Below, piece by piece: positions 7,421 through 34,043 of a DNA stretch of 64,000 nucleotides. Numbering within the stretch: the first letter of the stretch is position 1; every line of letters starts with the position of its first letter. The position numbers and the translations under genes are program-made. Origin of the DNA: Paucibacter sp. Y2R2-4 (GTDB lineage: Bacteria > Pseudomonadota > Gammaproteobacteria > Burkholderiales > Burkholderiaceae_C); assembly GCF_025717535.1 (NCBI RefSeq), contig NZ_JAJIRO010000004.1, positions 682,001-746,000 on the forward strand, written 5' to 3'. The notes below the pieces were generated by a model. That model had not been told where the DNA came from. It saw only the letters and a program-made list of their open reading frames with translations, and ran no database searches.

Positions 7421-7455
7421 GGGCAGATTGTCTCAGCCCGGCCGCGCCGAGGCGC

Positions 7456-17581: not shown

Positions 17582-17697
17582 GGAGTTGCTTGGTGAACAG
17601 TGCACCCAGATCATGTGGCGAGATTAGCAGTGGCGGTTAGGAAAACACCACGACACCCACCCGACAAAAGCCCGACAGACACCCGACAGCTGTAGAG

Positions 17698-17725: not shown

Positions 17726-18295
17726 TCATTCGATCTGAAGACTCGCAAAAGCGTAATCACGATCGAAATGCCGCAGCAGGCTGTCGAGCAACTTGAGATT
17801 CAGTGCATTGCCAAAATGCTCGTCCTTGCCGGCCGCCACGGCATCACGATGGCTTTGCAGGGCGACTCGGTCTTTCTCTAGAAAGGCAATGGTCGCGCGA
17901 ACATAGTCGTTCCAGCGCAGTGATCCTGGCTTGCGATCGTCTTTGTCACTGAGTACGGTTTTTGAATACCGAACCGCAGCGACCGTGTCTCCTTGGGTCG
18001 CCCGAAGCTGGGCGATATGCCAACGCAGGGAGCTTTGCTTGGCTCCATTGGCGGCGATATAAGCCTCGATCAAATCCGCCGCCTGCTTCTCGCAGCCCGG
18101 CTCTCTCACAAGCGCTCGAAAGCCCTGGCCCTCGGTTTGATCAAAGGCCCGGTAGTCCAAACTCAGATCGGTCTTGAGGCGCTCTTGGTAGAGCCGCTCG
18201 CAATCCAAGGCTTGAACGCCCCCACTGAGCAAAAGCAGGCTGCACAAAGCAAACCAGGGCAAGCATCTTGACTCAGGCATTTTCAAACGACGCAT
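17726..18295 (-). CDS. Small exported helical protein of unknown function
   Basis: A 189-aa protein with a signal peptide (CLPWFALCSLLLLSGGVQA, cleavage before Leu-Asp-Cys) and a mature part that is mostly helical and charged. It contains two Cys (Cys-Glu-Arg near the mature N-terminus and ...EPGCEKQAADL), which could form a disulfide. The pattern of short amphipathic helices (SSLRWHIAQLRATQGDTVAAVRYSKT) is TPR-like. No family is recognised. It is a lone gene bracketed by copies of the same 17-bp REP-like sequence, which suggests it arrived or moves as a cassette. Confidence 0.6.
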   Translation of the reverse strand: MRRLKMPESRCLPWFALCSLLLLSGGVQALDCERLYQERLKTDLSLDYRAFDQTEGQGFRALVREPGCEKQAADLIEAYIAANGAKQSSLRWHIAQLRATQGDTVAAVRYSKTVLSDKDDRKPGSLRWNDYVRATIAFLEKDRVALQSHRDAVAAGKDEHFGNALNLKLLDSLLRHFDRDYAFASLQIE

Positions 18296-18442: not shown

Positions 18443-20140
18443 TTAGGCTGCTGCTGCCGCTGCGACCTCGCCGCCTTGGTAGCCGCGTGGCACCGCGCCC
18501 AAGAGCTTGCGGGTGTATTCCTGCTTCGGCGCATCGAGCAAGGCCTGGGTCTCGTTTTGCTCGACCACATCGCCGTTCTGCATCACCAGCACTTCGTCGG
18601 AGATGAACTTCACCACCGCCAAGTCATGGCTGATGAAGACATAGCTCAGGCCGAACTCGTCCTGCAGGTCTTTCAGCAAATTGAGCACCTGGGCCTGCAC
18701 GGACACGTCCAGCGCCGACACCGCTTCGTCCAGCACCAAGACCTCGGGGTTCAGCGTCAGGCAGCGTGCAATCGCAATGCGCTGACGCTGGCCGCCTGAG
18801 AACTCGTGCGGGTACTTGTTCAAGACCGTGTCGTCCAGGCCCACCTTCTTCAGCAGGGCGCTGGCGCGAGCCAGACGCTCTTCGTGGCTGGCACCGATCT
18901 TGTGGATTTCCATCGGCTCGACCAAGGTTTGGCCAATGGTGAAGCGCGGGTTCAGCGAGGCATAGGGGTTTTGGAACACCACCTGGATGCGGCGGCGCAT
19001 CTTTTGCCAGTCATTGCCGCTCATCTTCAGCAGGTCTTTGCCTTCAAACAAGACCTCGCCGCCGGTCGGCTCATGCAGACGCAAAAGCGTCAGGCCCATG
19101 GTGGTCTTGCCGGAGCCGGACTCGCCCACCACGCCCAGGGTGTAACCCTTGCGCAGCTTGAAGCTGACTTCCTTGACGGCCTTGAACTCCTTCTTGCCGA
19201 ACAGGCCGGCCTTGAAGAAGAAGCTCTTCTTCAGACCGCGCGCTTCCAGGATCACTGGCGCATTCGGGTCCTTGGCCTTGCCCACGCCTTCGCTGATGCT
19301 GCGGCCGGCGATGTGGTCGTCGATCACCATCAGGCGGGCCGGGTTCTCGGTCAGCGAAGGGCGGCAGGCCAGCAAGGCCTTGGTGTAGCTGTCTTGCGGA
19401 TTGCTGAAGATCTGGGCCACCGGGGCCTTCTCGCGGATCTGACCGTGGCGCATCACCACCACCTGATCGGAGATTTCGCCCACCACGCCGAGGTCGTGCG
19501 AGATGAACAACAAGCTCATCTTGTGCGTTTCCTTCAGCTTGGCCATCAGTTCCATCACCTGGCGCTGGATGGTTACGTCCAGGGCGGTGGTCGGCTCGTC
19601 GGCGATCAAAAGCTTGGGCGAGCAAGCCAGGGCCACGGCAATCATCACGCGCTGCTGCTGGCCACCCGACATCTCGTGCGGATAGGCCTTCAGGCGGCGC
19701 TTGGGCTCGGGGATGCCGACCTCATTGAGCAGCTCTTCGGCCCGCACCAGGGCCTGCTTCTTGCTCATTCCCATGTGCTTGATCAGCGGCTCCATGATCT
19801 GGTCGGCCACGGTGAACACCGGGTTCAGCGAAGTCATAGGATCCTGGAACACGCAGGCGATGTCGCGGCCACGGATGGCTTGCAACTCGCGCAGCGAGCA
19901 CTGGCGCAGGTCCTGCCCTTGGAACAGGATCTTGCCCTCGCGCTCGGCGTTGTCGGGCAGCAGGTTCAAGATGGACATGGCCGTCACCGACTTGCCCGAA
20001 CCCGACTCGCCCACCAGGGCCACGGTCGAATTCTCGGGGATGTCAAAGCTGATGCCCTTGACGGCCAATGCGCGCTGCATCTGGCCGTCCACCTTGCCCA
20101 TGCGGAAGGCGACCTTGAGGTCTTGAATGGATAACAACAT
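18443..20140 (-). CDS. Peptide ABC transporter, fused double ATP-binding protein (YejF/DppDF-like)
   Basis: A 565-aa protein with two complete ABC ATPase cassettes. The first has Walker A GESGSGKS (near 45), signature MSGGQQQRV and Walker B LLIADEPTTALD. The second has Walker A GESGSGKTTMG (near 331), signature FSGGQRQRI and Walker B VLVLDEAVSALD. Each is followed by the oligopeptide-type C-terminal extension (for example QDSYTKALLACRPSL). This single-chain layout is that of YejF and related peptide importers, replacing separate DppD and DppF. It energises import through the two permeases upstream. Distal gene of the minus-strand transporter operon. A run of Ala ends the protein. Confidence 0.93.
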   Translation of the reverse strand: MLLSIQDLKVAFRMGKVDGQMQRALAVKGISFDIPENSTVALVGESGSGKSVTAMSILNLLPDNAEREGKILFQGQDLRQCSLRELQAIRGRDIACVFQDPMTSLNPVFTVADQIMEPLIKHMGMSKKQALVRAEELLNEVGIPEPKRRLKAYPHEMSGGQQQRVMIAVALACSPKLLIADEPTTALDVTIQRQVMELMAKLKETHKMSLLFISHDLGVVGEISDQVVVMRHGQIREKAPVAQIFSNPQDSYTKALLACRPSLTENPARLMVIDDHIAGRSISEGVGKAKDPNAPVILEARGLKKSFFFKAGLFGKKEFKAVKEVSFKLRKGYTLGVVGESGSGKTTMGLTLLRLHEPTGGEVLFEGKDLLKMSGNDWQKMRRRIQVVFQNPYASLNPRFTIGQTLVEPMEIHKIGASHEERLARASALLKKVGLDDTVLNKYPHEFSGGQRQRIAIARCLTLNPEVLVLDEAVSALDVSVQAQVLNLLKDLQDEFGLSYVFISHDLAVVKFISDEVLVMQNGDVVEQNETQALLDAPKQEYTRKLLGAVPRGYQGGEVAAAAAA

Positions 20141-20280: not shown

Positions 20281-21336
20281 TCACTCCAGGCCGCGCAGTT
20301 TGGGGTCCAGCGCATCGCGCAAGGCATCGGTGAACAGCGCGAACGCCGTCACGAAGATGGCCATCAAGCCCGTCACGGCGGCCAGCTGCCACCAGTAGCC
20401 CAGGATCAACTCGCTTTGCGATTCGCTCAGCATCGTGCCCCAGGAGACCTGGTCCACACCGACGCCCAAGCCCAGATAGGACAAGATCACTTCGCTCTTG
20501 ATGAAGCTCACTACATGCAGGCTCAGCTGCACCAGGGCCACGTGCGAGACGTTGGGCAGGATGTGCTTGAACATGCGCGAGTACTTGGAAGCACCAATCG
20601 CCTCGGCCGAACGCACGTATTCACGCACCGAGTGCTTCATGAACTCCGCGCGAATCAGGCGGTAGATGCCGGGCCAGCCGGCCAGGCCCAGAATCATCAC
20701 CACCGACATCACGCCGCGGCCGAAGATCACCGCGAAAGCGAAGATCAGCAAGATGCTGGGGATGGCAGTGAAGACGTTGTAGAGCCACTCCAGGAAGTCG
20801 CCAACGCGGCCCCCGAAGAAGCCCGACAGGGCGCCCAGCACGGTGCCGATGATGGTGGCCACCACAGCCGCCAAGACGCCCACCAAGATCGAAACCTCGG
20901 CGCCCTTGATGGCCTTGGACATCACATCGCGGCCCAGGCGGTCGCCGCCCAGCGGCAGCGTTTCGGCCTTGACCAGGGTCTCGGTCTTGTACTGCTTGGC
21001 GCGCTCTTCCCATTCCTTGTACTTCGGGGCCAAGGGGTCGATATCGCTCAGGTCCACATTCGGGCCCTTGGGCGTGACGATGGCGCCGGTGGCTTCGGCA
21101 GGCGCCGGGCCGATGAAGGTGGGCGGCGCATTCGGCACGCCAACTTCCTTCTGCCAGTTCTTGGCGATCAGGCCGGTGCTGGAGGCGATCACCATCAGCA
21201 AGAAGAAGCCGACGATGACCATGGACACCATGCCCACCTTGTCGGTGCGCAGGCGGCGCCAGGACGCAGCCCAGACGCCCTCTGATTTTTGAGCCGCCTT
21301 CGGTGCGGCTGTGTTGTTCGACATGACCGCACTCAT
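20281..21336 (-). CDS. Peptide ABC transporter permease (YejE/DppC-like)
   Basis: A 351-aa inner-membrane permease of the DppC/OppC/YejE class. It has an N-terminal transmembrane helix (about 32-52), a long periplasmic insert, the diagnostic LGGDRLGRDVMSKAIKGAEVSI segment, then about five helices and the EAA loop (VRSAEAIGASKYSRMFKHILPN) that contacts the ATPase. The insert with WQKEVGVPNAPPTFIGP and a charged stretch to about residue 135 is longer than in DppC and resembles YejE-type permeases. The start overlaps the stop of the YejB-like gene (ATGA, 21333-21336). Confidence 0.92.
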   Translation of the reverse strand: MSAVMSNNTAAPKAAQKSEGVWAASWRRLRTDKVGMVSMVIVGFFLLMVIASSTGLIAKNWQKEVGVPNAPPTFIGPAPAEATGAIVTPKGPNVDLSDIDPLAPKYKEWEERAKQYKTETLVKAETLPLGGDRLGRDVMSKAIKGAEVSILVGVLAAVVATIIGTVLGALSGFFGGRVGDFLEWLYNVFTAIPSILLIFAFAVIFGRGVMSVVMILGLAGWPGIYRLIRAEFMKHSVREYVRSAEAIGASKYSRMFKHILPNVSHVALVQLSLHVVSFIKSEVILSYLGLGVGVDQVSWGTMLSESQSELILGYWWQLAAVTGLMAIFVTAFALFTDALRDALDPKLRGLE

Positions 21337-22271
21337 TTCAAAACCACCCGTGGATCGACCAGCTTGTAGAGCAAGTCGGTGATCAAGTTCACCACCATGG
21401 TCAGGAAGGCGATGTAGATCGCGAAGGCCTGGATGACGGGGTAATCGCTGCGGTTCACTGCCAGCAAGATCTCACGGCCGAGGCCGGGGATAGAGAAGAA
21501 CACTTCCAGCAAGAAGCTGCCGACGAAAACGCCGGGCAAGGCCACGGAGATGTTCGTCATGATGGGAATCATGGCGTTGCGCAGCACATGCTTGAGCAGA
21601 ATCGTGCCCTCGGTCATGCCCTTGGCGCGCGCGGTGCGCACATAGTCGTGGCCGATTTCATCGAGGAAGAAGGTGCGGTACAGACGCGTGTAAGGCGCAA
21701 TCGCCACTGCCACGGCCACCATCACCGGCAGCGGCGCATAGGTGGTCAAGTTGGTCCAGACGCTGTCGGTCCAGCCCTGCACCGGGAACCAGCCCAGGCG
21801 GAAGGCGAACACATACTGGCCCACGATCACATAGACCAGCAGCGAGATCGACACCGCCACCGTGCTGATGATCATCACCGCGCGGTCGGTCAGGCTGCCG
21901 CGCACCGAGGCCACGGCCAGCGCAAACGGAATCGCCAGCAGCACTTCCAGGAAGAGGATGGGCAACATCACCGTCAGCGTGGCCGGCAAGCGGCTGCTGA
22001 ACAGGCTGGCCACCGACTCATTGGTCGCCCAGCTCTTGCCCCAGTCGAAAGTGACGATCTGCTTGATGAAGATCCACAACTGCTCCAGCACCGGCTTGTT
22101 CAGGCCCAGCTGTTCGCGGATCGCGTCGATCTGCTCAGGGCTGGCGTTCAGGCCGCCGAGGATTTCGGCCGGGTCGCCGCCAAAGTACTTGAAGAGAAAG
22201 AACACCAGCAGCACGACACCGAGCAGAGTCGGAATCATTTGCCACAGGCGCCTGAGCAGGTAGGCCAACAT
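21333..22271 (-). CDS. Peptide ABC transporter permease (YejB/DppB-like)
   Basis: A 312-aa permease with the DppB N-terminus (LAYLLRRLWQMIPTLLGVVLLVFFLF), periplasmic helices, the EAA loop (YVRTARAKGMTEGTILLKHVLRN) and the conserved end (IPGLGREILLAVNRSDYPVIQ...LVDPRVVLK). First gene of the transporter operon, coupled to the YejE-like permease. It reads divergently from the six binding-protein genes across a 409-bp gap. Confidence 0.93.
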   Translation of the reverse strand: MLAYLLRRLWQMIPTLLGVVLLVFFLFKYFGGDPAEILGGLNASPEQIDAIREQLGLNKPVLEQLWIFIKQIVTFDWGKSWATNESVASLFSSRLPATLTVMLPILFLEVLLAIPFALAVASVRGSLTDRAVMIISTVAVSISLLVYVIVGQYVFAFRLGWFPVQGWTDSVWTNLTTYAPLPVMVAVAVAIAPYTRLYRTFFLDEIGHDYVRTARAKGMTEGTILLKHVLRNAMIPIMTNISVALPGVFVGSFLLEVFFSIPGLGREILLAVNRSDYPVIQAFAIYIAFLTMVVNLITDLLYKLVDPRVVLK

Positions 22272-22680
22272 TGCTGTCGCGTCTCCAGGGTTTGCAGGTC
22301 GCAGTTCGACAAAAGTGAAACCCCGCAGGCTCGTGGCGAACGGGGTTTGCGCAAAGAAAATCTGGCGCGAGTCTAGTCGAACTGCCGCCCCTCGCTCACC
22401 GGCATTTGCCCAGGGCGCCCCCCCGCGCCTGCGGGGCTAGGCCGCTATTTCAGGGCTCAAGCAACGAATCAAACCTAGCCTGATGCAGTTTGCGCATAAG
22501 GCGCTCAAGCCACAAAGCACTAGACTGCGCGGCTCTGCAAGCGCCCTCATCCTGGGCGAAGGCCCGTTTCCATCGGCATTTCCGGCCTTTGAGCGGGGGC
22601 AAAGCCTCGCTTCCGCGGTGCAGTCGTGACACAAATGCGCTTCGCCATGGCCGAGCAGATGAATAGAAGATGAACCTCGA
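22272..22680. other. Divergent intergenic region between transporter and binding-protein array
   Basis: This 409-bp stretch must hold the promoters for both the minus-strand transporter operon and the plus-strand receptor array. An 8-bp-stem inverted repeat (AAACCCCG 22318-22325 / CGGGGTTT 22341-22348) lies in the leader of the transporter operon. The 10-mer GCACTAGACT at 22517-22526 recurs upstream of the second receptor gene. No convincing sigma70 -35/-10 pair and no ORF worth calling was seen. Confidence 0.5.
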
Positions 22681-24552
22681 ATGAAAAATCTCTTGAAGCA
22701 AAGTCCCCGGTCTTTTGGGGCGCTGGTGCCGCTGCTCTTCGGTCTGTTAAGCGCTGCCGCTGGCCTGGCATCGGCGCAAGCGACGGCTGGGGCGGACAGC
22801 AGCAAAGCCCTCAGCGAGTCCCCCAAGGTCTTGCGTTATGCCTTTCGCGCCGCCGAGACCGGCTTTGACCCGGCGCAGATTTCCGACAGCTACTCAAAAG
22901 CCGTGGCCGCCGGCATCTTCGACGCGCCGCTGGAGTTTGAATATCACACCCGCCCGGCCAAGCTGCGCCCCAACACTTTGGTGGCCATGCCGGAGTTGTC
23001 GGCCGACTTCAAGACCCTGACCTTCGAGCTCAAGCCCGGCATTTACTTTGACGACCACGAAGTCTTCGGCGGCAAAAAGCGTGAGCTGGTCGCGGCCGAC
23101 TATGTCTATTCAATCAAGCGGCATTACGACCCGGTCTGGAAGAGCCCGAATCTCTACCTGCTGGAAAACGTCAAGATCCTCGGCCTCTCCGAGCTTCGCA
23201 AGGAGCTGATGGCCGCCAAAAAGCCGTTTGACTACGACCGCCCGGTCGAGGGCCTGCAGGTGCTGAGCCGCTACAAATTCCAGGTCAAGCTGGGCGTGGG
23301 CGACCCACGCTTCATCTACCAGTTCGCCGATGCCGGCTTCCTGGGCGCGGTGGCCCGCGAGGTGGTAGAGAAGTACGGCGTCAAGGTGATGGAGCACCCG
23401 GTCGGCACCAATGCCTGGCGTCTCGCCGAGTGGCGCCGCAGCTCGCAAATCGTGCTGGAGAAGAACCCCAACTTCCGCGAGCTGCGCTATGCGGAAGTGG
23501 CACCCACCGACAACCCCGCCCTGGCCGCCCATGTCGCGGCGCTGCAAGGCCGCCGCTTGCCGATGGTGGACAAGGTGGTCATCGCCATCATTGAAGAAGC
23601 GCAACCGCGCTGGTTATCCTTCGTCAATGGCGAAAAAGACGTGATCGAAGAAGTGCCGGCCGACTTCGCCACCATCGCCATGCCCGGCAACAAGTTGGCG
23701 CCGAATCTGGCCAAGCGTGGCATTCAAATGACGCGTTACCCGCGTGCCGACGTGGCCTTCACCTACTTCAATATGGAAGACCCGGTGATCGGCGGCTACA
23801 CGCCCGAGAAGATCGCGCTGCGCCGCGCCATTTCGCTGGGCTCGGACGTCGACAAGCAAATCCGCCTGGCCCGCCGCGGTCAAGCCGTGGCCTCGCAAGG
23901 CCCGATCGCTCCCGGCACCTTTGGCTTTGACCCGAACTTCAAGTCCGAGATGGGCGAGTTCAACCTGGCCAAGGCCAAGAGCCTGCTGGACCTGTACGGC
24001 TATGTCGACAAAGACGGTGACGGCTGGCGCGAGCAACCCGATGGTTCGCCGCTGAAGCTGGAATACGCCACGCAGCCCGACAGCACCAACCGCCAACTCA
24101 ACGAGCAATGGCAGCTGACCATGAATGCGCTGAAGATCCGCGTCAAGTTCAAAACCGCCAAATGGCCCGAGAACCTGAAGGCGGCCAATGCCGGCAAGCT
24201 GCAGATGTGGGGCGTGTCCTGGGTGGCCACGGCGCCCGATGGTGACACCTTCCTGGCCCTGGGCGACGGCGGTGCCAAGGGCAAGGCCAACAAGGCGCGC
24301 TTTGACCTGCCGGCCTATAACGCGCTCTACGCCAAGCAAAAGTCCTTGCCCGATGGCCCCGAGCGCCAAGCGGTGATGGCCGAGGCCGCCAAGCTGCTGA
24401 TCGCCTATATGCCTTACAAGACCGAGGTGCACCGCGTCTTCACCGATATGGCGCAACCCTGGGTCGTGGGCTACAACCGCAATGTCTTTGTGCGCGACTT
24501 CTGGAAGTATGTGGACATCGACACCGAGGTCTTGAAGCGCCAAGGCAAGTGA
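22681..24552 (+). CDS. Peptide ABC transporter substrate-binding protein, paralogue 1 of 6
   Basis: A 623-aa periplasmic binding protein of the SBP_bac_5 (OppA/DppA/YejA) family. It has a Sec signal peptide ending near Ala-Ser-Ala-Gln-Ala, then KVLRYAF and ETGFDPAQ at the start of the mature protein and the hallmark HPVGT..WRLAEWRRSSQIVLEKNP near 238-262. Also seen are a Ca2+-loop-like DKDGDGWREQPDG near 443 and a pocket segment WVATAPDGDTFLALG. It delivers peptides to the divergent Yej-like permeases. It is the receptor closest to the transporter genes. Within this array it groups with paralogues 2 and 6 by the PDGD pocket motif. Confidence 0.93.
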   Translation: MKNLLKQSPRSFGALVPLLFGLLSAAAGLASAQATAGADSSKALSESPKVLRYAFRAAETGFDPAQISDSYSKAVAAGIFDAPLEFEYHTRPAKLRPNTLVAMPELSADFKTLTFELKPGIYFDDHEVFGGKKRELVAADYVYSIKRHYDPVWKSPNLYLLENVKILGLSELRKELMAAKKPFDYDRPVEGLQVLSRYKFQVKLGVGDPRFIYQFADAGFLGAVAREVVEKYGVKVMEHPVGTNAWRLAEWRRSSQIVLEKNPNFRELRYAEVAPTDNPALAAHVAALQGRRLPMVDKVVIAIIEEAQPRWLSFVNGEKDVIEEVPADFATIAMPGNKLAPNLAKRGIQMTRYPRADVAFTYFNMEDPVIGGYTPEKIALRRAISLGSDVDKQIRLARRGQAVASQGPIAPGTFGFDPNFKSEMGEFNLAKAKSLLDLYGYVDKDGDGWREQPDGSPLKLEYATQPDSTNRQLNEQWQLTMNALKIRVKFKTAKWPENLKAANAGKLQMWGVSWVATAPDGDTFLALGDGGAKGKANKARFDLPAYNALYAKQKSLPDGPERQAVMAEAAKLLIAYMPYKTEVHRVFTDMAQPWVVGYNRNVFVRDFWKYVDIDTEVLKRQGK

Positions 24553-24728
24553 TCCGCCCCGCAAAGCTCCGCCCCTCAACCCTGGGGTTGGACTGCATGG
24601 CCGGGCCGGCGCACAGGCACTAGACTTCGCCCTGCGTCGCTCTAGCTGAGCGGGCGCGCAAGAGCTCCATCGCGCCGAGGTCAAAAGCCTGCCGGCGCGT
24701 TTGTTTGTCTGTCCGTCCACGAACCAGG

Positions 24729-26594
24729 ATGCATGTGACCGTGCTGCGACCCCGGATTCCGGCCCTGCTGCTGATGACCACCGCGCTTGCGCTCAACTGC
24801 GCGGGCTGGGCGCACGCCCAGGAGGCCGCAAGGCCCGAGGCCAGCGAAGCCCCAGCACCCAAGGTGCTGCGCTACGCTTTTCGCATCGCCGAAACCGGCT
24901 TCGACCCGGCACAAATCTCCGACCTGTACTCGCGCATCATTGCCGGCGGCATCTTTGAGGCACCGCTGCAGTACGAATACCTGGCCCGGCCCATCCGCCT
25001 GCGGCCTGCCACGGCCGAGAGCCTGCCCGAGGTCTCGGCCGACTTCAAAACGCTGACCTTTCGCATCAAGCCCGGCAGCTTCTTCAACGATGACCCGGCT
25101 TTTGAGGGCAAAAAGCGCGAGCTGACCGCGGCCGACTACATCTACTCCATCAAGCGCCACTTTGACCCGCGCTGGAAAAGCCCGAATCTCTATTTGCTGG
25201 AGAACGCTCGCATCCCCGGCATGAACGAGCTGCGGCGCGAGGCCTTGAAGAACAAAACCCCGTTCGACTACCAGCGCGCGGTGCCCGGCCTCACGCTGAT
25301 CGACCGCTACAGCTTCCAGGTCCGCACCGAAACCGGCGACCCGCGCTTCATCAACCAGTTTGCCGATCCCTCCACGCTGGGTGCGGTGGCGCACGAGGTG
25401 GTGGAGCGTTATGGCGACAAGATCATGGACCACCCGGTCGGCACCGGCGCTTGGGCCTTGAGCGAATGGCGGCGCAGCTCGCGCATGGTGCTGACGCCCA
25501 ACCCCAATTACCGCGAAGTGCTGTATGACGAGCGGCCGCCGGGCGACAACGCAAGGCTGGTGGCACAAGCCGCCCGGCTGCAGGGCCGCAAGCTGCCCAT
25601 GATCGACCGGGTCGAGATCGCCATCATCGAAGAGAACCAGCCACGCTGGTTGTCCTTCCTGCGCGGCGAGGCCGATCTGGTCGACGAGGTGCCGAATGAG
25701 TACGCACCGATCGCCATCCCGAACAACAAGCTGGCGCCCAACCTGAGCAAGCAAGGCCTGCAGATGGTGCGTTATCCGCGCGCCGATGTGGCGATCTCCT
25801 ACTTCAATATGGAAGACCCGCTGGTCGGCGGCTATACGCCAGAGAAGATCGCGCTGCGCCGCGCCATCTCGCTGGCCATCGACCTCGACAAAGAAATCCG
25901 CCTGCCCCGGCGCGGCCAGGCCATCGCCTCGCAGGGGCCTATCAGCCCTGGCGTATTTGGCTATGACCCCGGCCTGAAAACCACCATGAGCGAGCATGAT
26001 CTGGCGCGCGCCAAAGCCTTGCTCGATTTGTACGGCTATGTGGACCGCGACGGCGACGGCTGGCGCGATCAGCCCGATGGCAGCCCGCTCACCATCGAGT
26101 ACGCCACCGAGCAAGACGGCGAAAAGCGCGCGCTGGCCGAGCTCTGGCAAAAAGCGATGGACGCCATTCAGCTGCGCATCAAATTCCGCCATGCCAAATG
26201 GCCCGAGAACCTGAAGGCCGCCACCGCCGGCAAGCTGCAAATGTGGGGGGTAGGCTGGAGTGCGGCCTCGCCCGATGGCGACACCTTTTTGGCCCTGGGC
26301 TATGGGCCCAACAAAGGGCAATCGAACAAATCACGCTTTGACCTGCCGGCCTACAACGCCTTGTACGAAGCGCAGAAAAAGCTGGCCAACGGCCCCGAGC
26401 GTCTGGCGCTGATGACGGAAGCGCAAAAGCTGCTGGCCGCCTATATGCCTATCAAGATGCATGTGCACCGCGTCTACACCGACTTGGCCCAGCCCTGGGT
26501 GGTCGGCTATGACCGCAATGTCTTTGTGCGCGCCCCCTGGCAGTACGTCGATATTGACAGCGGCGTGCTGAACTCAGCATCCCGCAAGCCCTGA
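24729..26594 (+). CDS. Peptide ABC transporter substrate-binding protein, paralogue 2 of 6
   Basis: A 621-aa SBP_bac_5 protein closely related to its neighbours throughout (KVLRYAFRIAETGFDPAQ, GTGAWALSEWRRSSRMVL, MIDRVEIAIIEENQPRWLSF, DRDGDGWRDQPDG). ATG 24729 gives an Arg-containing hydrophobic signal peptide (LRPRIPALLLMTTALALNCAGWAHAQ); the in-frame TTG at 24705 is a less likely start. The pocket segment is SAASPDGDTFLALGYGPNKGQSN, close to paralogue 6. The 176-bp gap to paralogue 1, the longest inside the array, may carry its own promoter (shared GCACTAGACT at 24617-24626). Confidence 0.93.
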   Translation: MHVTVLRPRIPALLLMTTALALNCAGWAHAQEAARPEASEAPAPKVLRYAFRIAETGFDPAQISDLYSRIIAGGIFEAPLQYEYLARPIRLRPATAESLPEVSADFKTLTFRIKPGSFFNDDPAFEGKKRELTAADYIYSIKRHFDPRWKSPNLYLLENARIPGMNELRREALKNKTPFDYQRAVPGLTLIDRYSFQVRTETGDPRFINQFADPSTLGAVAHEVVERYGDKIMDHPVGTGAWALSEWRRSSRMVLTPNPNYREVLYDERPPGDNARLVAQAARLQGRKLPMIDRVEIAIIEENQPRWLSFLRGEADLVDEVPNEYAPIAIPNNKLAPNLSKQGLQMVRYPRADVAISYFNMEDPLVGGYTPEKIALRRAISLAIDLDKEIRLPRRGQAIASQGPISPGVFGYDPGLKTTMSEHDLARAKALLDLYGYVDRDGDGWRDQPDGSPLTIEYATEQDGEKRALAELWQKAMDAIQLRIKFRHAKWPENLKAATAGKLQMWGVGWSAASPDGDTFLALGYGPNKGQSNKSRFDLPAYNALYEAQKKLANGPERLALMTEAQKLLAAYMPIKMHVHRVYTDLAQPWVVGYDRNVFVRAPWQYVDIDSGVLNSASRKP

Positions 26595-26641
26595 GCCCCT
26601 TTTTGCCCTTCTTTGAGCCCCAGACCCCAGGTAGCCCTTTC

Positions 26642-28513
26642 ATGATCTTCCGCTCGTTTTCATTCGCCCGCCGACAGGGCCTGGTTCGCAGTGTGCTCGG
26701 CGCTTTGGCCCTGGGCCTCTTGGGCAGCGGCAGCTGGGCCGAATCCAGCCCAGCGCCAAGCAGCCCAAGCCCGACGGCCCAAGCTTCCCCCAAAGTGTTG
26801 CGTTATGCCTTCCGGGTCGCCGAAACCGGTTTCGACCCCGCCAAGGTCACCGACATCTATTCGCGCATCGTCACCCAGCACATCTTCGAAGGCCTCTTCA
26901 CCTACGACCATCTGGCCCGGCCGGCCAAGCTCAAGCCACTGACAGCCGCCGCTCTGCCCGAGGTCAGCGCCGACTTCAAGACCTGGACCATTCGCATCCA
27001 GCCTGGCATCTATTTCGCCGATCACCCCGTCTTCAAGGGCAAGAAGCGCGAGCTGACGGCCGAGGACTATGTCTACAGCTTCAAGCGCTTTGCCGATCCG
27101 CTGACCAACTCGCCCACCTGGGACGGCCTGGAAGAAAACCATCTACTGGGCCTGAATGAATACCGCGCGGAAGTCCAGAAGAGTAAAAAGCCCTTCAATT
27201 ACGACAAGCCGATTGAAGGCTTGAAGGCGCTGGACCGCTACACCTTGCAGATTCGGCTGGGCAAGCCGCGTCCGCGCTTTGACCAAACCCTGGCCGACGG
27301 CAGCCTTTTGGGTGCCGTGGCCCGCGAGGTGATCGAGCTGGACCCCGAGCACAGCAGCGAAAACGCGGTGGGCACCGGCCCCTTCCAACTGGCCAGCTGG
27401 CGGCGCAGCTCGCAAATCGTGCTGGAACGCAACCCCGGCTACCGCGAGCGTTTTTATGACGCCGAGCCGAATGCCGACGATGCCGAGGGTCAGGCCTATT
27501 TGGCTCGTTTCAAAGGTCGCCGCATCCCCATGATCGACCGGGTGGAGATCGCCATCATCGAAGAGAACCAGCCACGCTGGTTGTCCTTCCTGGACGGCCA
27601 GTTCGACCTGCTGGAGCGCACGCCCGAAGACTTCATCAACCAAGCCATGCCAGGCGGCAAGGTGGCGCCCAATTTGGCCAAGCGTGGCATTCAAAGCTAC
27701 CGAGTGGTGACCTCGGACGTGCTGTTCACCGTCTTCAATCTGGAAGACCCAGTGATCGGTGGCTATACGCCCGAGCGCATCGCGCTGCGCCGCGCGATTG
27801 CGCTGGGCACCAACTCCGAACGTGAGATTCAGCTGGTGCGTCGCGGCCAGGCGATCAGCGCGCAGTCCATCATGCTGCCGCACACCACCGGCTACGACCC
27901 GCAATTCAAGAGTGAAAGCGGCGACTACGATCCGGCCCGCGCCAAGGCTCTGCTCGACCTCTACGGCTATCTCGACCGCGACGGCGATGGCTGGCGCGAG
28001 CAGCCCGACGGCAGCCCGCTGGTCTTGGAAAGCCTCACCACGCCCGAGCAGTTCCAGCGCCAGATCGACCAGATCTGGCAAAAGAGCTTGGCCGGCATCG
28101 GCATCAAGGTGCAGTTCAAGACTGCCAAATGGCCGGAGAACCTCAAGTCCATGCGCGCTGGCAAGTTCCAAATCTGGTCGCTGGCCAGCTCGGCCGCCTC
28201 GCCCGATGGGCAAGACGCCTTGGGCTTTTTCTACAGCGACCGCATTGGCGGCCAGAACTATGCGCGCATCAAGCTGAAGGTCTTGGACGATCTCTACGAG
28301 CAGTCCAACGCCTTGCCCGATGGCCCCGAGCGCCTGGCCTTGTTCAATGAGCTGAAGCGCCTGGGTGCGGCCTATGCGCCGTATCGGCCGCGCGGCCACC
28401 GCATCATCACCGATCTGGCGCATCCGCAATTGCTGGGCTATCGGCGCCCGCAGTTCTGGTTGAATTTCTGGGAGTACGTGGACATCGACCCCAGCCAAGC
28501 CCACCGAAAGTAA
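26642..28513 (+). CDS. Peptide ABC transporter substrate-binding protein, paralogue 3 of 6
   Basis: A 623-aa SBP_bac_5 protein with a Sec signal peptide (VRSVLGALALGLLGSGSWA). ATG 26642 is preceded by CAGGTAG at ribosome-binding distance; the in-frame upstream start at 26603 would add a non-signal extension. It shares the array's core motifs (GTGPFQLASWRRSSQIVLERNPGYRERFYDAEP, RRIPMIDRVEIAIIEENQPRWLSF, DRDGDGWREQPDG). In the pocket the PDGD of paralogues 1/2/6 is changed to PDGQD followed by ALGFFYSDRIGGQN, placing it with paralogues 4 and 5. Same strand, 47 bp after paralogue 2. Confidence 0.93.
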   Translation: MIFRSFSFARRQGLVRSVLGALALGLLGSGSWAESSPAPSSPSPTAQASPKVLRYAFRVAETGFDPAKVTDIYSRIVTQHIFEGLFTYDHLARPAKLKPLTAAALPEVSADFKTWTIRIQPGIYFADHPVFKGKKRELTAEDYVYSFKRFADPLTNSPTWDGLEENHLLGLNEYRAEVQKSKKPFNYDKPIEGLKALDRYTLQIRLGKPRPRFDQTLADGSLLGAVAREVIELDPEHSSENAVGTGPFQLASWRRSSQIVLERNPGYRERFYDAEPNADDAEGQAYLARFKGRRIPMIDRVEIAIIEENQPRWLSFLDGQFDLLERTPEDFINQAMPGGKVAPNLAKRGIQSYRVVTSDVLFTVFNLEDPVIGGYTPERIALRRAIALGTNSEREIQLVRRGQAISAQSIMLPHTTGYDPQFKSESGDYDPARAKALLDLYGYLDRDGDGWREQPDGSPLVLESLTTPEQFQRQIDQIWQKSLAGIGIKVQFKTAKWPENLKSMRAGKFQIWSLASSAASPDGQDALGFFYSDRIGGQNYARIKLKVLDDLYEQSNALPDGPERLALFNELKRLGAAYAPYRPRGHRIITDLAHPQLLGYRRPQFWLNFWEYVDIDPSQAHRK

Positions 28514-28540
28514 GCCAGAGAGTCCAAGCACAAGACCGCC

Positions 28541-30391
28541 ATGAAGATGAAGTTGAACTTGCCCCAAATGCTGGCCTGCTCGCTGAGCATTTGGCTTGCT
28601 TTGCAAAGCACGGCCCACGCAGCACCCGAGGCAAGCGATAGCCCCGCGGCGGCGGCCACAGCAGCCCCCAAAGTGCTGCGTTATGCCTTTCAGATTGCTG
28701 AGACCGGTTTCGACCCCTCGCAGCTCAGCGACATCTATTCGCGCACCGTCACCGGCGGCATCTTTGAAGCGCTGTACCGCTACGACCACCTGGCTCGCCC
28801 GGTGCAGATCAAGCCCTTGCTCGCCGCAGGCATGCCCGAGATCTCGGACGATTTCCGCAGCTTCACCATCAAGATCCAGCCTGGCATCTACTTCGCCGAT
28901 GACGAGGCCTTCAAGGGCAAGAAGCGCGAGCTGACCGCGCAAGACTTCGTTTACAGCCTCAAGCGCTTTGCTGACCCGGCGCTCAAAAGCCCCAATTGGA
29001 GCTATGTGGAAGAGGCCGATTTGGTGGGCCTGGGCGCCCTGCGAAAGCAAGCGCTCGACAGCAAGAAGCCCTTTGAGTACGACAAGGACGTGGCGGGCCT
29101 GCGCGCCCTGGATCGCTACACCTTGCAGTTCAAAACCCAGAGCGCACGGCCTCGCCTGATCGAATCCCTGATGGTGGGCAGCGACTTGTTCGGCGCCATG
29201 GCCCGCGAGGTGGTCGAGCATTACGGCGACAAGATCGCCGAGCACCCGGTGGGCACCGGCCCCTTCCGTTTGGCTGAGTGGCGGCGCAGCTCCCGCATCG
29301 TGCTGGAGAAAAACCCAGACTACCGTGAACGTTTTTACGACGCGGAGGCCACGCCCGACGATGCCGAAGGGCTGGCCTTGCAGGCGCGCTTCAAGGGCCG
29401 CCGCATCCCCATGATCGACCGGGTGGAGATCGCCATCATTGAAGAAGTGCAGCCCCGCTGGCTGTCCTTCTTGAACGCTGAAAAAGACCTGCTGGAGCGT
29501 GTGCCCGCCGAGTTCATCAGCCAGGCCATGCCGAATGGCAAGGTGGCGCCCAATCTGGCCAAGCGCGGCGTACAAGCCTTCCGAGTGATCGGACCGGACG
29601 CCACCCTGAGCACCTTCAACATGGACGACCCGGTGGTCGGCGGCTACACGCCGGACAAGATCGCGCTGCGCCGCGCCATCAGCCTGGCCATCGATGTACC
29701 CCGCGAAATCCGCCTGGCGCGGCGCGGCCAAGCGGTGCAAGCGCAGTCGCCCCTCGTGCCGCACACCACCGGCTACTCGGCCGACTACAGGTCAGAAACC
29801 GGCGACTACGATCCGGCCCGCGCCATGGCCTTGCTCGACCTCTACGGCTATGTCGATGCCGATGGCGACGGTTGGCGCGACCTGCCCGACGGCAAGCCCT
29901 TGGTCGTGATCCGCAACACCCAGCCCGACAACGCCTCACGCCAGCTCGATGAGTTGTGGCAAAAGAACCTCAAGGCCGTCGGCATCAAGGCGGAGTTCAA
30001 AACCGCCAAATGGCCTGAGAACCTGAAGAGCGCACGCGGTGGCAAGTTCATGATCTGGGGCGTGGGCTCCTCGGCCTCGCAGCCCGATGGCGTCAGCGCC
30101 TTGCAGCGCCTTTACGGCCCGGCCAAAGGCGGGCAGAACTTGTCGCGCTTCAAGCTGCCGGAGTACGACGCGATTTACGAGCGCCTGCAGGCCCTGCCCG
30201 ATGGGCCGGAACGCGAAGCCCTGTTCCTGCAAGCCAAGCGCATCGCCACCACCTATATGCCTTACAAGCAGCATGTGCACCGCATCCTGACCGATATGGC
30301 CCACCCCTGGGTGATCGGCTACCGCCGCGCCCTGTTCTGGCAGGACTGGTGGCAGTACGTGGACATTGACGAGAGCAAGAAGCCGAAGTGA
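28541..30391 (+). CDS. Peptide ABC transporter substrate-binding protein, paralogue 4 of 6
   Basis: A 616-aa SBP_bac_5 protein with a Sec signal peptide (LPQMLACSLSIWLALQSTAHA). Core motifs match the array (KVLRYAFQIAETGFDPSQ, GTGPFRLAEWRRSSRIVLEKNPDYRERFYDAE, GRRIPMIDRVEIAIIEEVQPRW, DADGDGWRDLPDG). The pocket segment reads PDGVSALQRLYGPAKGGQN, so the acidic residue of PDGD is absent. It starts 27 bp after paralogue 3 and its stop overlaps the GTG form of the paralogue 5 start. Confidence 0.93.
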   Translation: MKMKLNLPQMLACSLSIWLALQSTAHAAPEASDSPAAAATAAPKVLRYAFQIAETGFDPSQLSDIYSRTVTGGIFEALYRYDHLARPVQIKPLLAAGMPEISDDFRSFTIKIQPGIYFADDEAFKGKKRELTAQDFVYSLKRFADPALKSPNWSYVEEADLVGLGALRKQALDSKKPFEYDKDVAGLRALDRYTLQFKTQSARPRLIESLMVGSDLFGAMAREVVEHYGDKIAEHPVGTGPFRLAEWRRSSRIVLEKNPDYRERFYDAEATPDDAEGLALQARFKGRRIPMIDRVEIAIIEEVQPRWLSFLNAEKDLLERVPAEFISQAMPNGKVAPNLAKRGVQAFRVIGPDATLSTFNMDDPVVGGYTPDKIALRRAISLAIDVPREIRLARRGQAVQAQSPLVPHTTGYSADYRSETGDYDPARAMALLDLYGYVDADGDGWRDLPDGKPLVVIRNTQPDNASRQLDELWQKNLKAVGIKAEFKTAKWPENLKSARGGKFMIWGVGSSASQPDGVSALQRLYGPAKGGQNLSRFKLPEYDAIYERLQALPDGPEREALFLQAKRIATTYMPYKQHVHRILTDMAHPWVIGYRRALFWQDWWQYVDIDESKKPK

Positions 30392-30396
30392 ATCTG

Positions 30397-32244
30397 ATGA
30401 ATCCGTCCCGTTTTTTAAGACTGCTGGCCTGCGGCCTTGCCTCAGTGAGCCTGAGCCTGAGCCTGGGCCTCGGCCTGGCTTTGCCTGCAAGCGCCAGCTC
30501 TGCAGAAGCCCCCGCAGCCCCCAAGGTGCTGCGCTACGCCTTCCAGATCGCCGAAACTGGTTTTGACCCGGCGCAGATCAGCGACACCTACTCGCGCATC
30601 ATCACCTCGCATGTGTTCGAGGCGCTGTACAGCTACGACTACCTGGCTCGGCCGATCAAGGTTCGGCCCCTGACGGCGGCCGGCATGCCCGAGGTCTCGG
30701 CCGACTTCAAGACCTGGACGGTGCGCATCCAGCCCGGCATCTTCTTCACCGACGACCCCGCCTTCAAGGGCAAGCGGCGCGAGTTGGTGGCTGAGGACTA
30801 TGTCTACAGCTACAAGCGCTTTGCGGATCCGGCCAGCAAAAGCCCGAGCTGGACCACCGTGGGCGACTTTGGCCTGATCGGCCTGAACGAGTTGCGCGAG
30901 CAGGCACTCAAAACCAAGAAGCCCTTCAACTACGAGCAGCCCATTGAAGGCCTGCGCGCGCTGGACCGCTACACCCTGCAGTTCAAGCTGAAGGAAAGTC
31001 GGCCTCGCTTTATCTACGGCTTGGCGCAAAGCGACCGCTTTGGCGCCGTGGCCCGCGAGGTGATGGAAGCCTACGCCGACCGAACTATGGAGCACCCGGT
31101 CGGCACCGGCCCCTTTGTGCTGAAGGATTGGCGGCGCAGCTCGCGCATGGTGCTGGAGAAGAACCCCGCTTACCGTGAGCGTTATTACGAGGCCGAGCCG
31201 GCCGCCGATGACGCCGAAGGCCAGGCCCTGCTGGCCCGCTTCAAGGGCCGGCGCATCCCGATGATCGACCGGGTCGAAATCGCCATCATCGAAGAATCGC
31301 AGCCGCGTTGGCTCAGCTTTGTGGGCGGCGAACATGATTTGCTCGACCGGGTACCACCCGAGTTCGTCAACGTGGCCCTGCCCAAGGGCAAGCTGGCGCC
31401 CAACTTGGCCAAACGCGGTTTTCAGCTGTTTCGCGTGATGGGGGCGGAAAGCGCCTTCACCTTTTTCAATCTCGAAGACAAGACGCTGGGCGGCTACAGC
31501 GAAGACAAGGTGGCGCTGCGCCGCGCGCTCTCGCTGGCCTTGAACATTGAGCGCGAGATCAACGGCGTGCGGCGCGGCCAAGCGGTGCCGGCACAGTCGA
31601 TGATTCCGCCACACACCTCGGGCTATGACGCCGCCTACAAGAGCACGAACAGCGACTTCGACATCCCGCGTGCCAAGGCCTTGCTGGACCTGTACGGCTA
31701 TGTGGACAAAGACGGTGACGGCTGGCGCGATATGCCCGACGGCTCGCCGCTGGTGATCGAAGTGGCCACCCAGCCCGACGCGCTTTCGCGCCAGTACGAC
31801 GAACTCTGGCAGCGCAATTTCGGCGCAGTGAACATTCGCACCAAGTTCTTCCATGGCAAATGGCCGGAGCAACTCAAGCAGGCCCGCGCCGGCAAGCTGA
31901 TGCTGTGGATGTTGGCCGACAGCGCCAACGCCCCCGATGGCCTGGACCAGATGCTGCGCCTCTACAGCCCGGCCATCGGCGCGCGCAATTACGCCCGCTT
32001 CAAGTCCGCCGAATTCGACAAACTCTACGAACAGTTGCAAGTGATGCCCGACGGCCCCGAGCGCGAGGCCTTGTTCCTGCAAGTCAAGCGCATCCAGGCC
32101 ACTTATGTGCCCGAGAAAACCCATGTGCACCGCATCATCAATGACATGAGCCAGGCCTGGGTGATTGGCTACCGCAGGCCGCTGTTCAGCAATGACTTCT
32201 GGCAGTTCATTGATGTGGACAACTCGCTGAAGCCAGCGCGATGA
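30397..32244 (+). CDS. Peptide ABC transporter substrate-binding protein, paralogue 5 of 6
   Basis: A 615-aa SBP_bac_5 protein with a Leu/Ser-rich signal peptide (CGLASVSLSLSLGLGLALPASA). Either ATG 30397 or the in-frame GTG 30388, which overlaps the paralogue 4 stop, may be used. Core motifs are conserved (GTGPFVLKDWRRSSRMVLEKNPAYRERYYEAEP, DKDGDGWRDMPDG). The pocket segment is NAPDGLDQMLRLYSPAIGARN. Its last codon overlaps the paralogue 6 start by ATGA (32241-32244), showing translational coupling. Confidence 0.93.
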   Translation: MNPSRFLRLLACGLASVSLSLSLGLGLALPASASSAEAPAAPKVLRYAFQIAETGFDPAQISDTYSRIITSHVFEALYSYDYLARPIKVRPLTAAGMPEVSADFKTWTVRIQPGIFFTDDPAFKGKRRELVAEDYVYSYKRFADPASKSPSWTTVGDFGLIGLNELREQALKTKKPFNYEQPIEGLRALDRYTLQFKLKESRPRFIYGLAQSDRFGAVAREVMEAYADRTMEHPVGTGPFVLKDWRRSSRMVLEKNPAYRERYYEAEPAADDAEGQALLARFKGRRIPMIDRVEIAIIEESQPRWLSFVGGEHDLLDRVPPEFVNVALPKGKLAPNLAKRGFQLFRVMGAESAFTFFNLEDKTLGGYSEDKVALRRALSLALNIEREINGVRRGQAVPAQSMIPPHTSGYDAAYKSTNSDFDIPRAKALLDLYGYVDKDGDGWRDMPDGSPLVIEVATQPDALSRQYDELWQRNFGAVNIRTKFFHGKWPEQLKQARAGKLMLWMLADSANAPDGLDQMLRLYSPAIGARNYARFKSAEFDKLYEQLQVMPDGPEREALFLQVKRIQATYVPEKTHVHRIINDMSQAWVIGYRRPLFSNDFWQFIDVDNSLKPAR

Positions 32245-34043
32245 GTTCAAGACGCCGCTTTCTGAGCCAGGGTGCGGCGCTCGCAGGCAGCACTTGCTTG
32301 GCCGCGCCAGCCTTAGCGGCCAGTGCCGCTGAAAACAAGCGTAAGGTTTTACGTACCGCCTTCAACTCGGCCGAGGTCGGCTTTGATTTGCCGCAGGTCT
32401 CGGACCGGACCTCGGTCGAGGTGGCCTCGCACATCTTTGAGCCGCCGCTGACCTTTGACTATCTGGCCCGGCCGGTGCTGCTCAAGCCTTTGACAGCGGC
32501 GAGCCTGCCCGAGGTCTCGGCCGACTTCAAGCACTTTGTCTTCACGATCCGGCCCGGCATCTACTTCGCCGATGACCCGGCCTTCAAGGGCAAGAAGCGC
32601 GAGCTGGTGGCCGAGGACTATGTCTACAGCATCAAGCGCTACTACGACCCGCGCATCAAGACCGAGCATCTCTACCAGTTCGAGACGGCCAGGCTGCTGG
32701 GTCTGACGGAGCTGCGCAATCAAGCGCTGAAGAACAAGACGGCGTTTGACTACGACAAGCCGGTGGCTGGCCTGAGGGCGCTGGACCGCTACCGCTTCGA
32801 GGTGCGCCTGGCCGAACCCGACCCGCGCTTCGTCAATGTCTTTGCCAGCAGCAACTTCACCGCCGCCGTGGCGCGCGAGGTGGTCGAGGCCTACGGCGAC
32901 GACATCATGGCCCACCCGGTGGGCACCGGGCCCTTTCGACTCAAGAGCTGGCGGCGCAGCTCGGAGATCGTGCTGGAGCGCAACCCGAATTTCCGCGAGC
33001 AGTTCTTCGAATCCGACGGGCCTGCCGTCGGCGACGCCGACGCTGCCCGCGCCGCTCAGGAGCTGGCCGGCAAGCGCTTGCCGCTGCTGGACGAAGTTCG
33101 CGTCAGCATCATCAACGAGGCGCAACCACGCTGGCTGGCCTTTCTCGGCGGCGAGTTGGACTTGGTCGAGATGCCGGTCGATGTAGCGCGCCTTGCCCTG
33201 CCCAACGGACGCCTCGCGCCGAATCTGCAAAAGCGCGGTGTGCGAGCGCTGAGCTCGCATGGCGCCGACATCGCCTTCAGCTACTTCAACCTTGAAGACC
33301 CCCAGATCGGCGGCTACACACCCGAAAAAGTAGCGCTGCGCCGCGCCATCGTGCTGGCCTATGACAACGCCGAGGAAACACGGCTGGTGCTGCAGGGTCA
33401 GGCCTTGCCGGCGCAAAGCATGTTGCCCACGCTGATCTATGGCCATGAGCCGGAGTTGCGCAGCGAGGCCGGCTTGACCGACCCGGCCCGCGCCCAGGCA
33501 CTGCTGGACCTGTATGGCTATGACAAGCGCGACCCCGAGGGCTACCGCCTGAATCCCGACGGCAGCCCGCTGACGCTGCGCCGCGCCGGGCGCGAAACCG
33601 CCCGCGAACGCCAGCTGCATGAGCTGTGGAAGAAGAAGATGGATGCGGTGGGTCTGCGCATGCAGTTCGAGACCGCCACCTTCGGCGAGTTGATCAAGAA
33701 AGCCTTGGTCGGCCAGCTGATGATCTGGGGCTACACCTGGGACCTGGGTTCCCCCGACGGCGACTTTTTGCTGGGCATGGGCTACGGGCCCAATGCCGGG
33801 CAATCGAACGATGCGCGCCTGAAACTGGCCGAGTACGACCGCATCTACGAGCGCCAGCGGGTGCTGCCCGACGGCCCCGAGCGCCTGGCGCTGATGCACA
33901 AAGCCACCCATCTGATGTTGGCCTATATGCCCTATCACCCGCACAACTATCCGCTGCGGGTGGACATGCTGCAAAAAGAAGTTCGCGGCTTTGTCCGCCA
34001 CCCGTTCAACCGGGATCGTTGGCGTTTTGTGGACATGGGCTGA
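32241..34043 (+). CDS. Peptide ABC transporter substrate-binding protein, paralogue 6 of 6 (Tat-type signal)
   Basis: A 600-aa SBP_bac_5 protein, the most divergent of the six. Its N-terminus SSRRRFLSQGAALAGSTCLA is a twin-arginine signal, whereas the others carry Sec signals, so it may be exported folded. It keeps GTGPFRLKSWRRSSEIVLERNPNF and the YTWDLGSPDGDFLLGMGYGPNAGQSN pocket, close to paralogue 2. The Ca2+-like DxDGDGW loop of the other five is degenerate here (YDKRDPEGYRLNPDG). The start overlaps the paralogue 5 stop. An 8-bp-stem hairpin follows the stop codon. Confidence 0.92.
   Translation: MSSRRRFLSQGAALAGSTCLAAPALAASAAENKRKVLRTAFNSAEVGFDLPQVSDRTSVEVASHIFEPPLTFDYLARPVLLKPLTAASLPEVSADFKHFVFTIRPGIYFADDPAFKGKKRELVAEDYVYSIKRYYDPRIKTEHLYQFETARLLGLTELRNQALKNKTAFDYDKPVAGLRALDRYRFEVRLAEPDPRFVNVFASSNFTAAVAREVVEAYGDDIMAHPVGTGPFRLKSWRRSSEIVLERNPNFREQFFESDGPAVGDADAARAAQELAGKRLPLLDEVRVSIINEAQPRWLAFLGGELDLVEMPVDVARLALPNGRLAPNLQKRGVRALSSHGADIAFSYFNLEDPQIGGYTPEKVALRRAIVLAYDNAEETRLVLQGQALPAQSMLPTLIYGHEPELRSEAGLTDPARAQALLDLYGYDKRDPEGYRLNPDGSPLTLRRAGRETARERQLHELWKKKMDAVGLRMQFETATFGELIKKALVGQLMIWGYTWDLGSPDGDFLLGMGYGPNAGQSNDARLKLAEYDRIYERQRVLPDGPERLALMHKATHLMLAYMPYHPHNYPLRVDMLQKEVRGFVRHPFNRDRWRFVDMG

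Follow-up and report, generated by a model that had tools for sequence, protein, structure and literature searches.

In the 64,000-nucleotide stretch of the Paucibacter sp. Y2R2-4 genome analysed here ("the window"; contig NZ_JAJIRO010000004.1, positions 682,001 to 746,000), six genes for receptors of the SBP_bac_5 family, designated S1–S6, stand in one row and face the divergently oriented genes of one permease pair and one fused double ATPase. The arrangement is best explained as one Opp/Dpp-type ATP-driven importer served by six periplasmic receptors, the row of which has grown by tandem duplication; the probability of this reading is put at roughly 0.8. The receptors would each capture a different set of ligands, which are most likely oligopeptides or other peptide-like compounds; once loaded, a receptor would close and take its turn at docking on the one permease pair, which the fused double ATPase would drive. 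Starting from a single ancestral receptor, the row would have been lengthened by tandem duplication, chiefly in its middle, with the permease and ATPase genes remaining single copy. That all six receptors dock on the permease B/C pair, and that their ligands differ, we infer from the sequences described below.

The receptor row and its transporter core

The genes of the locus are as follows (aa, amino acids).

18443..20140, minus strand: fused double ABC ATPase, 565 aa; two ABC_tran stretches and oligo_HPY
20281..21336, minus strand: permease C, OppC/DppC type, 351 aa; BPD_transp_1 1.1e-28, OppC_N 8.1e-07
21333..22271, minus strand: permease B, OppB/DppB type, 312 aa; BPD_transp_1 2.2e-36
22272–22680: divergent gap from permease B to S1, 409 bp
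22681..24552, plus strand: S1, class A receptor, first position, 623 aa
24705..26594, plus strand: S2, class A receptor, 629 aa from TTG
26603..28513, plus strand: S3, class M receptor, 636 aa from TTG
28541..30391, plus strand: S4, class M receptor, 616 aa
30388..32244, plus strand: S5, class M receptor, 618 aa, 4-bp overlap with S4
32241..34043, plus strand: S6, class Z receptor, last position, 600 aa, 4-bp overlap with S5

Twelve SBP_bac_5 genes are found in the 5.13-Mb genome, and six of them make up this row, as intact genes arranged head-to-tail on the plus strand at 22681–34043. The spacings from S1 to S6 are 152, 8, 27, −4, and −4 bp, so the overlaps of S4 with S5 and of S5 with S6 are real. 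These 4-bp overlaps agree with an earlier, sequence-only reading of this DNA, in which the last three receptor genes were described as coupled. Its six consecutive related genes on one strand and its permease pair and fused double ATPase lying divergently across a 409-bp gap were likewise borne out; the pairwise identity of the six products was measured at 47–65%. The receptor lengths given there, 600–623 aa, hold at the lower end only, the range being 600–636 aa with the starts as called, and the interval 22272–34043 given for the gene row has its first base in the gap, S1 beginning at 22681. For S2 and S3, starts at the ATG codons at 24729 and 26642, respectively, are likelier than the TTG codons.

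SBP_bac_5 (PF00496) is the sole match of each of the six products in a Pfam scan (E values 1e-52 to 3e-63; 179.9–214.6 bits against a curated cut-off of 32.4). The closest pairs in the window are S1–S2 (65% identity) and S4–S5 (62–63%). The ratio of nonsynonymous to synonymous substitution rates (dN/dS), calculated against the related loci L013 and L014, is 0.09–0.20 for S1–S6 and 0.016–0.09 for the permeases and the ATPase; the former values indicate that all six receptor genes are under purifying selection and are not chance open reading frames. For permease B, the best solved relative is E. coli DppB (4.3e-44).

Receptor number and linkage to the permease within the family

In a draw of 150 genomes of the family, an orthologue of permease B (threshold E up to 1e-90) was found in 53, with one full-length copy in each; a second match in one genome, G107, is partial, with 185 residues. 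Regions were fetched from the 52 permease-bearing genomes besides that of the window and from eight further genomes of the genus. Receptors were then counted in 52 family loci, the window included, with L054 left out because its record is that of L032. The counts are lower bounds, some loci lying at contig edges: no receptor in 1 locus, one in 9, two in 11, three in 16, four in 8, five in 2, six in 4, and seven in 1. At least two paralogous receptors are thus tied to one core in 42 of the 52 loci (six in the window); the 42 take in two loci whose row is displaced or inverted within the fetched stretch (L044 and L070) and one (L063) whose second receptor is distant. Since the number of receptors varies from 0 to 7 and the full-length permease stays single, the receptors appear to belong with one core.

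Receptors of the S1–S6 family occur in all 18 genomes of the genus that were searched, and seven receptors are present in four named Paucibacter records. Among named genomes, the locus has relatives in Paucibacter, Roseateles, Mitsuaria, Rubrivivax, Rhizobacter, Caldimonas, Inhella, and other Burkholderiales. In these genomes 23 loci were compared, and in 22 of them the permease genes face the receptor row; the exception, L018, is a 4.8-kb contig that carries receptors only. Even where there is one receptor, it usually adjoins permease B: this is the case in eight of nine single-receptor genomes, found among 14 family genomes searched.

Order and duplication of the receptors

Receptor classes were taken from a FastTree phylogeny with 239 sequences, the single outgroup sequence among them. 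They comprise 69 A, 130 M, 25 Z, 5 n, and 6 v sequences with three unplaced; class A is what remained after the other groups and is therefore not a proven clade. The rows run in the order A, then M in the middle, and Z at the end. Among the rows of two or more receptors (n = 62), A stands first in all 59 rows holding it and Z stands last in 25 of 25, counts reached by none of 10000 within-row shuffles. Furthermore, of the 50 rows with at least three receptors, 44 show a higher mean similarity between neighbours than between non-neighbours, and the mean neighbour difference was reached in 0 of 2000 shuffles. Both tests ignore the shared descent of the loci, and, as the loci are related, the results speak for a conserved order rather than for many independent events.

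In clades confined to a single genome, the paired receptors are adjacent in seven of eight cases. This adjacency, together with S1–S2 and S4–S5 as the closest pairs, fits in-place duplication. The sequence-only reading had proposed a receptor repertoire expanded by local duplication on one core; its duplication and linkage are supported by the 0–7 receptors per single permease, by the 44 of 50 rows, and by the outside loci described below, and that all six dock on this core is probable.

A gene of another kind lies within one row: in L014, a CHASE4-HAMP-GGDEF diguanylate cyclase gene (6324–7886) is found between S1 and S2, and L016 has a similar long open reading frame at this position. The L014 gene may point to a connection between signalling and the transporter. 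A decayed receptor was sought in the S1–S2 gap of L014 and L016 and was not found.

Relatives outside the family

A search at the level of the order (300 genomes, best seven candidates per genome, E up to 1e-110) gave at least 52 matches, 49 of them in other families, and 20 of these 49 were fetched. In all 20 outside loci a receptor of the S1–S6 family adjoins the permease or lies one peptidase gene off. Eighteen are co-directional, with one to three receptors detected, and two (L102 and L103) are divergent, with one receptor. In a tree of 113 sequences, obtained by a quick search with midpoint rooting and showing several weak inner branches, the family-level receptors, apart from the distant one of L063, cluster together (SH-aLRT 98), and L102 and L103 are their nearest neighbours (SH-aLRT 98). 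The latter position suggests that the divergent layout arose before the row grew. The first two receptors of L113 are sisters (support 100), and the tree also suggests that other lineages, such as this one, expanded their receptor sets independently.

In eight of the 20 outside loci (L096, L097, L098, L101, L106, L108, L113, and L114), a gene for an M3 peptidase belongs to the operon or adjoins it: five loci have it between receptor and permease, and three have it beside the ATPase; a ninth, weaker match (L105) was left out of the count. An apparent fusion of ATPase and peptidase in L097 and L098 is really an out-of-frame overlap. An operon of the same transporter family is carried by a record of the gammaproteobacterium Acinetobacter baumannii, NZ_CP104448.1 (L131:6078–15585), in which two SBP genes, an M3 peptidase gene, two permease genes, and an ATPase gene follow one another in this order and are co-directional. 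This record is filed as a plasmid, yet it is 4.1 Mb long, and no more than 37 features are annotated for it in the collection. The starts of the M3 products of L131 and of all eight loci but L108 were judged by eye, and these eight starts all resemble export leaders.

Assignment to known transporter families

Membership in the Yej, Gsi, and DppA families was assessed with NCBIfam models and their cut-offs. The Yej (microcin C) transporter was rejected, with scores of 553.2 bits for the ATPase (cut-off 834), 142.3 for permease B (cut-off 445), and 102.9 for permease C (cut-off 439). The GsiABCD glutathione transporter was rejected as well (GsiA 570.6 against 1077, GsiC 202.1 against 463, GsiD 147.6 against 484, and GsiB at most 58.2 against 594 bits), and so was the DppA dipeptide receptor (NF043070), for which S1–S6 score 55.4–91.1 bits against an equivalog cut-off of 1005. 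The best NCBIfam matches of the ATPase are GsiA and then YejF, both under the cut-off. The earlier label "Yej-like" applies to the ATPase fusion only. A Yej label also failed for L012, the second receptor set of the same genome, whose permease scores 101.1 bits against 445 and in which no Yej receptor model was matched. L012, which supplies the outgroup receptor of the tree, was kept only as a second receptor-permease set of the genome.

Ligand positions, models, and leaders

Ligand positions were mapped onto S1–S6 by sequence alignment. AlphaFold2 models reach a mean pLDDT of 90.6 for S4 and 89.5 for S1, and a Foldseek search with the S4 model gave structures of DppA, OppA, and GbpA and other family-5 receptors as best matches. 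In E. coli DppA, R383 and D436 (R355 and D408 of the mature protein) pair with the ends of the dipeptide (PMC12136057). At these two positions S1 has Y/V, S2 Y/S, S3 S/S, S4 R/S, S5 V/S, and S6 R/D. When S2 is aligned with GbpA, the register shifts by two residues near the second anchor, giving Ala instead of Ser, and not Asp. Columns conserved among orthologues and variable among paralogues include the R355 position and several beside D408.

Among the 235 classed sequences, the pairing of a basic with an acidic residue is found in seven of 25 Z receptors, namely those of the window, L013–L016, L019, and L026. An acidic anchor was therefore discarded as a mark of all last-position receptors, and the distribution of these seven suggests that the S6-type pair was regained in one group. 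Another property of the Z class concerns export. Twin-arginine-like motifs occur in 21 of 25 last-position Z leaders versus 15 of 69 A and 27 of 130 M leaders, counts that are rough, the leaders having been cut by a simple rule. The leader of S6 (32241–32310) is itself twin-arginine-like, and, given the higher frequency of such leaders in its class, S6 may be exported folded. A lipobox pattern is seen in seven of 238 leaders.

Evidence against the reading and alternatives to it

Several results weigh against one peptide importer with six receptors. Of the six receptors, S6 alone retains the Arg and Asp pair by which DppA anchors a dipeptide, and none of the 69 A, 130 M, 5 n, and 6 v receptors has a basic and acidic pair. 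The Glu-Arg of the DppB scoop loop, judged by eye, is absent from permease B and the relatives aligned with it. An M3 peptidase like those of the outside loci was not found in the window or the family-level loci, and the M3 genes present in the Paucibacter genome itself, four in number, show at most 31% identity to the M3 genes compared. The genome also has other receptor-permease sets, and at least one further permease pair with no SBP_bac_5 gene nearby, which might accept S1–S6. The shared descent that underlies the order and neighbour tests counts on the same side.

The anchor residues bear on the possibility that S1–S5 bind non-peptide ligands, for example opines, sugars, or metallophores, and that S6 alone is a peptide receptor. 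Other residues stand at both anchor positions in S1, S2, S3, and S5 and at one of them in S4. For a comparable change in HbpA2, glutathione or dipeptides were deemed highly unlikely by the authors (PMC3295651). Moreover, the family-5 fold matches of S4 include structures with non-peptide ligands: 5z99 (sialic acid), NikA 4oer (nickel), and 6hlx (agropinic acid). On the other hand, M3 peptidase genes adjoin the eight outside operons and the one in Acinetobacter, and the titles of the best solved relatives name peptides, glutathione, or aminoserine as bound. This alternative is regarded as rather unlikely. Plain dipeptides are unlikely ligands of S1–S5 in view of the anchor residues; peptides or peptide-like compounds are still the most likely ligands of S1–S6 in view of the peptidase genes adjoining the operons.

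Another possibility is that only some of the receptors, S1/S2 or S6, use permease B/C, and that the rest dock elsewhere or are periplasmic chaperones or sensors; a chaperone role has been discussed for OppA (PMC9967938). Among the 12 SBP_bac_5 genes of the genome are several with an adjacent permease pair, and a high-scoring pair (PF00528; G000:C2:633234–634849) has no SBP_bac_5 match nearby and could share receptors with other systems. In one family genome (G067) no receptor lies at the permease site and the lone receptor is about 126 kb away, and in G004 and G007, which have lone extra receptor copies, a homologous permease gene was not found within the 20 kb fetched around them. However, almost every family locus counted has the row next to the permease, the receptor adjoins it in eight of nine single-receptor genomes, and in other families the receptor type travels with the permease type, so that partial use of the core is improbable. 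Close homologues standing beside permeases of their own, a separate permease for each receptor, were not found in the loci and genomes compared; the distant homologue in L063 (25% identity) does adjoin its own permease genes, and two distant matches lie elsewhere in G140. The latter are distant tandem relatives of the receptors (G140:C3:358549–362034) and do not lie at the permease site.

Dosage is often raised by tandem duplication, and the copies might be largely redundant, giving more receptor protein rather than wider specificity. Four of the five DppA receptors of P. aeruginosa indeed have overlapping substrate profiles (PMC4206461), yet S1–S6 differ by 35–53% in sequence, each is kept under selection, and positions at or beside the DppA anchors vary among paralogues and are conserved in orthologues, which leaves mere dosage a small chance.

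Promoter-like elements and possible regulators

Three short elements accompany the genes.

22370..22376, minus strand: CTAGACT promoter-like element on the permease side, from conservation
22520..22530, plus strand: CTAGACTGCGC promoter-like element upstream of S1, from conservation
24620..24630, plus strand: CTAGACTTCGC, third copy, in the S1–S2 gap

Of the 69 divergent gaps, 53 contain TAGACT directed at the receptors, 56 contain it directed at the permease, and 44 contain both; the reversed control hexamer is found in 3 and 1 gaps, respectively, for the two directions. G+C-rich hexamers also occur in most gaps (GGCGCG in 54 and GCGCCG in 47 of 69); as GGCGCG is about as frequent, what is telling is that a hexamer bearing A+T recurs at two fixed sides. 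Scans for internal terminators and for sigma-70 consensus promoters gave counts at the level of shuffled sequences, with no sigma-70 consensus at the TAGACT elements, so that conservation is the ground for these elements. In the whole genome CTAGACTNCGC is not enriched (13 sites, 19 for the control). The conserved pair points to divergent promoters that would co-regulate permease and receptors. The copy CTAGACTTCGC is possibly an internal promoter for S2–S6; CTAGACT is also present in the S1–S2 gap of L013 and is absent from those of L014, L015, and L016.

Upstream of the permease-side TAGACT, a GGGCAAATGCCGG block is largely conserved (window 22350–22540 and relatives) and is possibly an operator. 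Beyond the ATPase gene lies an HTH_3 regulator gene (17099–17614), with an adjacent open reading frame without Pfam match (17726–18295); the HTH_3 product is a possible regulator of the divergent promoters.

Comparison with known multi-receptor importers

In the sequence-only reading, one or two receptors were taken as the norm for YejA/DppA systems, a view not supported in the light of systems with five. In P. aeruginosa, DppBCDF is used by five receptors, DppA1–DppA5, four of them encoded near the core; sharing was demonstrated with a quintuple mutant and single complementation, in which DppA5 failed to complement (PMC4206461). The present locus resembles it in having one Opp/Dpp-type core and multiple family-5 receptors. 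It differs in having six receptors, up to seven in relatives, in one row facing the core, in the single fused ATPase gene, and in the loss of the DppA anchor pair from five of six receptors. In the Opp system of Borrelia burgdorferi, OppA1–OppA5 also arose by duplication, three in tandem on the chromosome and two on plasmids, and each has been modelled with its own peptide range (PMC5736914). That system has two permease pairs and lipid-modified receptors, whereas the permease is single copy here and lipoboxes are rare. The pneumococcal Ami permease likewise has several oligopeptide receptors (AmiA, AliA, AliB, and relatives; PMC11192437, PMC9789142), two of whose genes lie apart from the ami locus (PMC5736914), unlike the contiguous row.

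E. coli DppABCDF (PMC12136057) and YejABEF (PMC10924461) share fold and subunit logic with the present system, with a single receptor each, and the fused double ATPase is as in the YejF and GsiA models. The residues R383 and D436 of E. coli DppA and E41 and R42 of DppB (PMC12136057) are mostly or wholly missing here. As five of six receptors lack the pair by which DppA holds a dipeptide, the sequences counsel caution in annotating the whole row as dipeptide transport.

The number of receptors that one ABC importer can have, and whether these acquire new ligands with their docking surface unchanged, are questions so far addressed in systems of at most five receptors, some of them encoded apart from the others (PMC4206461, PMC5736914). 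One lineage with rows of one to seven in fixed order on a conserved core would allow a direct comparison of duplication, divergence, and docking. A more far-reaching proposal, tentative and short of even odds, is an ordered, evolving repertoire across many genera, with A first, Z last, and M multiplying between them, in which receptors and scoop loop would have left canonical peptide anchoring jointly and S6, in a single closely related group, would have regained the Dpp-type pair. If true, it would provide a natural series for tracking ligand divergence under one docking site. Among the titles listed from an open-licence library on Paucibacter or Roseateles and on shared or tandem receptors, none reports such an array. 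Multi-receptor importers being known, the present row is a longer, ordered example of them; what it adds is its length, its contiguity, its fixed order, the series of 0 to 7 receptors on one core, and the departure from canonical anchors.

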